Of a stretch of 64,000 bases of DNA, positions 22,901 through 25,900 are shown piece by piece. Every line of letters starts with the position of its first letter. The stretch's first letter is position 1. Both the position numbers and the translations under genes were made by a program. The notes below the pieces were generated by a model. The model was not told where the DNA came from. It saw only the letters and a list, made by a program, of their open reading frames with translations, and made no database searches. Source of the stretch: Phalacrocorax aristotelis (taxonomy: Eukaryota > Chordata > Aves > Suliformes > Phalacrocoracidae); contig NC_134283.1 of assembly GCF_949628215.1 (NCBI RefSeq), positions 26,080,975 through 26,144,974 on the forward strand. Reading direction: 5' to 3'.

Positions 22901-25900
22901 TTTGAGCCATAACAGTGATCATGCTACTTATTTTTTCAACAGCTTATAAATTACATAATAATAGTATTTTTTTCCCTCTAACTCAGATGCTTATCCAAAA
23001 AGTGAAATAATTTATACATGGAAAAAAGGACCCCTGCATTCAGTAGAAGTACCACAGGAGTCTTCCGGTCTCCTCCAGTATGACCTCATAGGACAAACTG
23101 TATCTAGTGAAACAATTAAATCGAATACAGGTAAGATGTAGCCATGTGGGAACTATTGACATTATAAAACGCATCTTGAAAATAAAGTACAGGGTTTTTT
23201 AATATAGAAATTTTATTTTAATGAATTATTTTAATTATATTTTGCCATTTAAAAAATTAAAATCCTTGGAAGGAATCAAATCATTGTCCCTTAAAAGACA
23301 ACTTTTCAATACAGCCCTGTTAAGCATACAATTTTCTATGCAATTCTTAAGGATTCCCCCTGCCTCCCCGCCCCAGTGAAAACAAAACATAAACCGAATA
23401 TTGTTCTCCTCTGTTTCCATAAGGTCACTTTACTTTTTTTTAATCAGCTTGTTTCTATTATGCACTAGGAGGCCTGTAAGTGCTTTGCTCAGAATGTAAT
23501 ATGTTGGGTTCAAGCCAATAATGTTTACTCATATGTTGCCAAAATAATGCTGACATACTTGTTTCTTAACAGATGAATATGTAATCATGACAGTTTATTT
23601 CCACTTGCAAAGGAAGATGGGCTACTTCATGATACAGATATATACTCCATGCATTATGACAGTCATTCTTTCTCAGGTGTCTTTCTGGATTAACAAGGAG
23701 TCTGTTCCAGCCAGAACAGTTTTTGGTATGCTGCATTAAGGTCTTTGAACAGCTCAGCATCACATATACCATTCATTCATTACTTTCATTGCTTGTTTGT
23801 TTTAGGCGAATATTCACTTCAGCTGCTTTATTTCCATCTTCAAAGGAAAATAGGCTACTATGTCATTCAGACATACATTCCATGCATCATGACTGTAGTC
23901 CTGTCTCAAGTAGTGTTTTGGATCAACAAAGAATCTGTTCCAGCAAGAACCGTGGCTGGTATTCGTGTTTTGTTCTTTTATTATTCACTTCGTTCAGTGT
24001 ATTGAATCCACTGTACTAAACAGCTGCTGTAATCCAGTTGGGATTGGAAATGACAGCTAGTAGGTTTCAGCGAACATAAGTAAACACTAAAATTAAACCA
24101 AATAATATTCAATCTGCCCACAAGGGTCAAAATTCTTTACTCAGAATGTTTGGTTAGCCAGACTTGTTTGTGATGGTTTTCTTCCCCTCAATATTTCTTC
24201 ATATGCAGGAAGAGACAATTTCAGGGTAAATGTCAACCTCTCAGTTTTTTAAAGATGAATTTTTCTATTGATTTATTTTCTTGTGAAGCCAATCTGAGTT
24301 AAAGATTTAAAAAAAAAAAATCACATGGGATGGACTTAATCTCATCTGCTCTAAGGTGCCTCACCCAGCCCTCAGTTTCTGCATTGCTAGTCCATTTGAC
24401 AGGCACCCCTACTTCAGTATTGATAGGCTCTGAAACTGCACTCATTGTTAAGGGGTAGACTTTCATTGAGTGAATTCTTGTTTCTGGACAAACAATCTTA
24501 TGAATACTAAGCAAAAATAATAAAACTTGTCAAAAACTTCATGCGTCCACTACGCATACAGACACCTTTTGCAACCCTATTTTCTCTTAACCCAGTCCTT
24601 CTGTACAGAAGCATTCCCTTTGTGAGACTTGTCTTCAGTAACACAAAGGCAGCTATATGTTCCCTAAGCATAAGTGATGCAAGTTTCATAATTCACAATG
24701 AGTCTATAACTGTAGTTAGCAAGCTACAGGATTTGAATGATTTGATTTCAGTCAACTGGCATTTCCTACCTCCATGGAATGGTATGCATAAAAGCATTGC
24801 AAACTTTTAGGAATTCTAAGCAAACACAACTTCCCCAGGTGTCTCTGAAGGAAGATCAATGCTTTTGTTCTTGAAATCCCCATTGGGAGTTGGGATGCAG
24901 TTTGCCATTGTTAAGCACTTACAAGTATTATTTTCTGACAATTGGGATTTCTGTATGTGCTTAAAAATATTAAATTTTGGGCAATAGGTTTTCCAGGCTG
25001 TTTATTGCAACTGAAGCATAACATGTATATAGGAGGTTTGTACACCAAATATAATGCTACCTGATCTGGCTTTATATTGCTGCTCTGGACTATACAGTTA
25101 CATCCTCCACATTTTGAGTAAAATGTATTTGCTACCTAGTGGGCAGTGGAAGTCAATTCTAGATGCTTGAAGTAATGTGCAAATTAGTCTTTAGCTGATT
25201 CAGTAATAATTACAAAAAGATCCCAAACCCTGGAATAACCACTCCCAGATGTTACACAAAATTAGAAATTTAAGTTATGTAAATACAAAATTAGAAACAG
25301 AAAATATTTTAAGAAAATAGTAAAATAGACACCTTTCTCAGATTGTGGGAAATTAGTCACATTGGCACCCTTCCATTCTTGTTTCTTCCAGGCACAGGCT
25401 GACTTTATAGTCCTTACTAATTCAAAATCCCAGGGATTCTAAATACCTTCATCTAAGGAAAGGAGGGTAAATTCCTTATGACAAAAGAGACTTTCATGCC
25501 CCAGTAAAAAAGAAAAGGTTTCAAATGGAGAAGTAAGTCTCCTTTCTGCATCATACTGCAAATACTGGAATTATAGATTTTCAGTTTTACTTCTAAGTTC
25601 CTAAACTATAAATTTGAGAGAAGAGAAAGTAGTAGTAGAAGAATCACAATAGTGTGCCCAAACCAGCTTCTCAGAACAGATTCATCTAGCAACTCTGTTT
25701 ACCTCCAAAATGGATGCCAGTTATCCTCTGCAGGTGATATTACAATAAATATTCTGAACCTTTTGCACAGACAAATTAATGGTCATAAGCACCTGCTCTT
25801 TACAGACCTGCAAGTGAAAAATGGGAGACAGAAATTCTTGAAGAGGCATGCTTGTGTTCTTTAAAACTGTGTCATTGGAAAGAACAGCAGATTGCTAGGA

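Follow-up and report, generated by a model that had tools for sequence, protein, structure and literature searches.

AMPA receptors swap a pair of neighbouring exons, flip and flop, which tunes gating and has been retained in mammals, and in Drosophila the GABA-gated Cys-loop channel Rdl has alternative exons 3 and 6, which belong to the ligand-binding domain. The tandem pair of GLRA2 (exons 3A/3B) is located in the extracellular domain. Receptors that contain the alpha-6 subunit set the tonic inhibition of granule cells in the cerebellum and serve as drug targets. Here we describe a pair of neighbouring exons, 7a and 7b, in the GABRA6 gene of Phalacrocorax aristotelis. Like flip/flop, it would be an exon swap in a transmitter-gated channel, although in a different family and at a different position; it differs from the pairs of Rdl, an insect gene in which they encode parts of the ligand-binding domain and arose independently, and from the extracellular-domain pair of GLRA2, because it covers the region from pre-M1 to early M2. 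Substitutions between tandem duplicated exons in vertebrates are mostly ancient and over-represented among ion channels and in nervous tissue, and GLRA2, a member of the same receptor superfamily, is named among the genes with such a pair in the main text of a catalogue of these events (PMC9741552). GABRA6 7a and 7b resemble the catalogued events in being adjacent homologous exons that can replace each other in frame. However, the catalogue is made of human events, its main text contains no match to GABR or GABA, and it would miss 7b if, as seems to be the case, mammals lack this exon. The zebrafish a and b forms of alpha-6 have been treated as whole-gene paralogues, and the available parts of the two papers concerned mention neither a difference in exon 7 nor a pair within a single tetrapod gene (PMC7973766; PMC5922542). 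In our literature search, which covered mostly open-access papers by their titles and the beginning of their abstracts, we found no description of the 7a/7b pair, in agreement with a first-pass annotation of this DNA whose author knew of no equivalent in GABRA6. Nevertheless, 7b-containing isoforms are already present in NCBI and UniProt gene models. Most of the knowledge about alpha-6 is mammalian and mammals seem to have exon 7a only, so the pair is of interest as something that mammalian work would not have shown.

The window, that is, the whole stretch of 64,000 nucleotides that was analysed, contains a complete set of GABRA6 exons on the forward strand (19929-42898), which were located using the human alpha-6 protein as a guide and then joined by script. 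The coding part of exon 1 (19929..19966) encodes the signal peptide and is followed by exons 2 (20227..20345), 3 (20639..20706), 4 (21975..22195), 5 (22294..22376) and 6 (22987..23130), the last of which ends in the donor CAG|gtaaga and joins either 7a or 7b in frame. Downstream of the pair are exon 8 (27917..28176), which contains the rest of M2 and M3 and has an acceptor common to 7a and 7b, exon 9 (37663..37917; donor GAA|gtgagt), which contains the M3-M4 loop and M4, and exon 10 (42848..42898), which encodes the C-terminal tail FFEPTAMHLRNDHQSN and the stop. This tail resembles those of proteins P0032 and P0057. According to this exon set, and to the closest proteins among the matches listed, which are named alpha-6, the gene is GABRA6, as had been proposed. 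The best whole-protein match among those listed was from Falco (96.2%), with the Strix proteins ranking lower, so an owl origin, which the 7b shared with two Strix proteins could have suggested, is not supported; in a gene tree built without exon 7 the protein adjoins that of stork. Other M1 exons are found nearby on the same contig and, under the subunit names that we assign to them, would form with GABRA6 a cluster of the GABRB2-GABRA6-GABRA1-GABRG2 type.

Exon 7a (23573..23725, forward strand) and exon 7b (23806..23958, forward strand) are both 153 bp long, in the same phase, open and bordered by AG and GT, and are separated by an intron of 80 nt (23726..23805), so they have the adjacency, length, phase and borders of a tandem duplicated pair. 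Exon 7a encodes pre-M1, M1, the M1-M2 linker and the first residues of M2 in the conventional version, ending in TVF|G, between the acceptor ...ttaacag|AT and the donor TTG|gtatgc, and the 54 amino acids at this exon are 96% identical to human GABRA6. Exon 7b, an alternative version of the same segment, has the acceptor ...gttttag|GC and the donor CTG|gtattc. Over the 50 whole codons the two exons differ in 13 amino acids and 43 bases, and the first residue also differs, being Asp with 7a and Gly with 7b. The whole gene forms one ORF with either 7a or 7b between exons 6 and 8. Thus, the coordinates bear out what the first-pass annotation had claimed, namely two open 153-bp exons in the same phase, 80 bp apart, with AG and GT borders, both splicing in frame between exons 6 and 8. 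As a separate observation, the AT at the start of exon 7a (23573-23574) gives an Asp (NTDEY) at a position that is Gly in human alpha-6 and in 7b of the window; this Asp is also present in the stork model P0032, which represents a cluster of 72 members.

We consider it highly probable that 7a and 7b are a tandem-duplicated pair used as alternatives, that they arose by a single duplication which had occurred by the jawed-vertebrate ancestor, and that both have been under purifying selection since then. Either exon would yield full-length alpha-6 subunits differing only in pre-M1, M1, the M1-M2 linker and the first M2 residues, so that two inhibitory channel subunits are probably available from the single GABRA6 gene. 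The residue differences between the two exons are consistent across species: at M2 3' all 58 distinct 7b peptides have Ala and all 17 distinct 7a-type peptides have Phe, and the residue that follows the GY of M1 is Phe in every 7a-type peptide and Tyr, Cys or His in 7b. The 17 distinct 7a-type peptides include an alpha-1-like one (P0043) and an altered one (P0055). Elsewhere 7b varies among groups, as at the M1 Cys, which is replaced by Leu or Met in 32 of the 58 distinct peptides. The pair had also been linked to neurosteroid and anaesthetic contacts, and in fact it spans the region of these sites, which we take to be the M1 Gln (IQTY) and Met (PCIM), but 7b of the window retains both residues. 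The 7a/7b changes therefore affect the pre-M1 strand, other positions of M1 and M2 3', and a drug difference at the Gln and Met contacts is not directly predicted.

A search with 7b alone recovered 28 short ORFs, among them five that bear the 7b signature (P0010, P0019, P0025, P0027 and P0030); the single mammal-named piece among the 28 (P0004) belongs to the 7a/alpha-4 type. When the full alpha-6(7b) protein was searched, with matches scored on exon 7b, it gave 825 proteins, of which the best 120 were listed, and a second search from an eel relative gave 305, of which the best 120 were also listed and 92 were new. Of the resulting 212 listed proteins, which stand for 90% clusters, include a few fusion models and would rank above any proteins with only 7a, 186 contain 7b alone, 21 contain 7a followed by 7b and 5 show other patterns (one with 7b and a later alpha M1, one with two 7a, one with a 7a-like segment and two with none at the threshold). 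The named carriers of 7b include birds, turtles, lizards, frogs, lungfish, bichir, sturgeon, bowfin, many teleosts and two sharks. The same 7b peptide is present without change in 50 listed proteins (P0032, P0060-P0108), 49 from birds, ranging from ostrich to songbirds with some species represented twice, and one from a turtle. So the search for the 7b peptide in other vertebrates that had been suggested found it, among the matches listed, in birds, turtles, fish and more, and in close relatives it is intact rather than disrupted or absent. Seven other bird rows deviate: two of Tyto (four changes), two of Strix (one change), one of Otus (two changes) and two models that end in another residue. 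The window's own 7b is that of the two Strix proteins, with a Leu to Val change. The 212 listed proteins, three of them without a species name, include none that is named as mammalian; a mammalian 7b would have been missed only if it were less similar to the query than teleost 7b or were inside the 90% cluster of another row. These sequences suggest a loss of 7b in mammals.

The exon-peptide tree (50 columns), built from chosen proteins together with the genome's own alpha and gamma exons, grouped the 28 chosen 7b rows, from sharks to birds, in one clade (100/99), while the 7a rows formed no clade and were mixed with alpha-4 and alpha-1/2/3/5 exons, mostly with weak support. This short tree is compatible with a duplication that either preceded or followed the split of alpha-4 and alpha-6. 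The name alpha-4-like is attached to some 7b carriers: the lungfish protein P0047 scored 631 bits against the solved alpha-6 chain and 599 against alpha-4, and the eel protein P0146 was a tie (622 for alpha-6 and 623 for alpha-4) and falls inside the teleost part of the alpha-6 tree, a tree that has no alpha-4 row. By its distribution and its single clade, 7b is no bird novelty but has a single origin at least as old as jawed vertebrates, and both copies are conserved (dN/dS 0.13, see below). As the shark split dates back more than 400 million years, the retention of a second M1 for such a time suggests two selected gating or assembly states in this region, and the two exons offer a natural chimera pair for structure-function work.

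In teleosts, the relationships of the genes were examined with proteins devoid of exon 7, because a tree of exon 4 was too short to place them; the tree contained 24 chosen proteins and that of the window and was rooted on sharks. All the teleost genes formed one clade (100/99), next to which bowfin was placed (83/72). Within the teleost clade we found a group of 7b-only genes (96/94), osteoglossiform genes that likewise have 7b only but form a group of their own (100/99), and a third clade (95/92) with Merluccius, Paramormyrops 6b and the second genes of Conger and Aldrovandia. The Merluccius sister gene has 7a and Paramormyrops 6b has 7a and an altered 7b. The listed teleost proteins named alpha-6a, from many teleost groups, have 7b alone and of the same peptide type as GABRA6 7b of the window. 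These patterns suggest that after the teleost duplication gabra6a retained 7b and gabra6b retained 7a, and it is a known outcome that tandem exons are distributed one per paralogue after gene duplication, as in FYN relatives or CACNA1F/CACNA1S (PMC9741552). However, the split is not clean, since the second genes of Conger and Aldrovandia have 7b models and yet group with the 7a-carrying teleost genes, and both exons persist in some 6b genes; as the comparison has one model per gene, other isoforms could alter this picture. Zebrafish alpha-6a is very likely of the 7b type, bracketed as it is by the alpha-6a sequences of Chanos, Salminus, Hoplias and Brachyhypopomus.

The zebrafish data give some indication of what 7b could do. 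One study reports gabra6a mostly in photoreceptors and gabra6b in retinal layers, and the same paper cites another one for robust expression of Xenopus alpha-6 in photoreceptors (PMC5922542). In conflict with this, zebrafish alpha-6a at 5 dpf is assigned to forebrain and midbrain, with no entry for the eye, in Table 1 of PMC7973766. In the mammalian retina alpha-6 labelling is described on rod bipolar cell dendrites (PMC7735995). In oocytes, alpha-6b with beta-3 responds to GABA with an EC50 of 0.6 uM, or 7.0 uM when gamma-2 is present, and alpha-6a gave no GABA current with beta-1, -2 or -3, with or without gamma-2, perhaps because of poor expression, as the authors suggest (PMC7973766). If zebrafish alpha-6a is 7b-type, 7b would be an alpha-6 form with other partners or gating, possibly linked to photoreceptors, which may explain why alpha-6a behaves unlike alpha-6b. 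That 7b is a specialised, perhaps photoreceptor, form of alpha-6 with altered gating or assembly, with 7a giving the cerebellar-type subunit, seems to us a nearly balanced proposition, falling just on the doubtful side. Somewhat more tentative is the history in which the ancestral jawed-vertebrate 7b subunit was mainly a photoreceptor one, teleosts converted the exon choice into two genes (gabra6a with 7b, gabra6b with 7a), and 7b disappeared from mammals, perhaps in a nocturnal bottleneck. If true, studies of rodents and humans could not have revealed this GABA receptor form of the outer retina. The second M1 exon also yields a prediction for the non-mammalian retina that can be tested.

An unlikely reading, although compatible with alternative splicing, is that the subunit with 7b is regulatory or does not conduct, and reduces the amount of alpha-6 receptor at the surface, rather than being a channel subunit with properties of its own. 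The retention in 7b of the M2 2' Val and of most of M1 does not favour this, nor does the presence of 7b-only alpha-6a proteins in many teleost groups. The silence of zebrafish alpha-6a in oocytes would fit such a subunit, but it is a weak negative because alpha-2b, alpha-4, beta-1, beta-2 and several rho subunits were also silent in the same assays (PMC7973766).

Under the preferred reading of 7a and 7b as alternatives, transcripts with 7b and without 7a are expected, and three full-length ORFs of this kind are present in the lgn source (P0112, P0149 and P0236, in contigs of 3038, 1840 and 1891 nt). We read this source as assembled public reads and such contigs as mRNA; as exons 1 to 10 of the gene in the window are spread over ∼23 kb, contigs so short should be mRNA unless they are retrocopies. 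On the other hand, 21 of the 212 listed models hold 7a and 7b in tandem, with 7a directly joined to 7b and the frame kept, although none of these 21 comes from the lgn source. The pair had been annotated as candidate mutually exclusive exons: their use as alternatives is supported, and strict exclusivity stays a candidate because of these joined models, which together with an 80-nt intron that can be spliced leave room for double inclusion. That 7a and 7b are normally both included, adding an extra M1 segment, or that 7b is a cassette added to 7a, is nevertheless quite improbable, given that 7a is absent beside 7b in 186 of the 212 models listed and in each of the three ORFs on short contigs, and that a second M1 would mean an extra membrane pass before M2, a poor fit to the established Cys-loop fold. 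An AlphaFold model of the protein with both segments was uninformative either way (mean pLDDT 36.8, pTM 0.22).

How the choice between 7a and 7b would be made can be approached from the splice sites. The GTRAG donor form, present in six of the other eight GABRA6 donors (exons 1, 3, 4, 5, 6 and 9, but not exons 2 and 8), is absent from both 7a (gtatgc) and 7b (gtattc). Because neither donor is GTRAG and the exons are only 80 nt apart, the pairing of the 5' site of 7a with the branch point of 7b may be hindered, and the exon choice would be regulated. The intron contains branch-point-like A's in a yTnAy context at positions 50, 54 and 63 (23775, 23779 and 23788). Given the known distance thresholds, steric exclusion through these candidate branch points is possible but borderline. 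We saw no regulatory RNA structure across the 80-nt intron, which was no more stable than its shuffles (z = 1.11). Five YCAY motifs are found in it, a number that exceeds expectation against single-base shuffles (P = 0.0045) and not significantly against dinucleotide shuffles (P = 0.085), so that a NOVA-type cluster was set aside and left as a lead.

Coding constraint on both copies is supported by their differences. The 43 base differences are distributed as 10/8/25 over codon positions 1/2/3 (chi-square against equal, p = 0.0024), and dN is 0.20 and dS ∼1.5, a ratio of 0.13 that is rough because pS is as high as 0.65; this pS is below nine of ten comparisons among the other alpha exons of the genome (range 0.56-1.02). 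When 7a was mutated neutrally to 43 differences in 20,000 simulations, under a simple model with all change placed on one copy, the products differed at no fewer than 18 amino acids (median 26), and not one run reached a number as low as the 13 observed. Since 26.5% of the simulations also remained free of stops, openness alone is little proof. Although that figure, the gtattc donor without the GTRAG form and the larger variation of 7b between major groups (58 distinct peptides against 17 of the 7a type, in searches biased towards 7b) could fit a decaying copy of the exon whose open frame is accidental and which gene predictors took up, we dismiss this as scarcely credible in view of the dN/dS, the simulations, the identical 7b in 50 listed bird and turtle proteins, the Ala at M2 3' in 58 of 58 distinct peptides, and the presence of 7b from sharks to birds. 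A recent duplication in the assembly was likewise rejected, the silent sites being too diverged.

Each of the two exons, when searched against the whole 1.28-Gb genome (E up to 0.001), found the same 26 places, which we read as M1 exons of Cys-loop receptors, two of them in GABRA6. By this reading, only GABRA6 has two such places in one gene, and the next closest pair is ∼63 kb apart. A general feature of GABA-A genes was therefore rejected at this sensitivity.

Finally, some minor observations concern 7b in particular lineages and the exon that follows the pair. The 7b of the owls Tyto alba (P0038 and P0116, four changes) and Otus sunia (P0059, two changes) has changed more than the 50 identical peptides, which could hint, from few sequences, at a relaxed constraint in night-active birds. 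P0055 from Xenopus laevis (300 aa) has altered 7a-like and 7b-like segments, one after the other, and is perhaps a decaying duplicate gene. Exon 8 matches the GABA3 editing element of Rfam (RF01803) at 27976-28029 on the forward strand, with 67.5 bits against a gathering score of 57. The same family matches six of the eight exon-8 loci of the genome (L046, which is GABRA6, to L051; 67.5-77.1 bits), so the match reflects shared coding sequence. The AUA codon of alpha-6 is at most a candidate site for editing.
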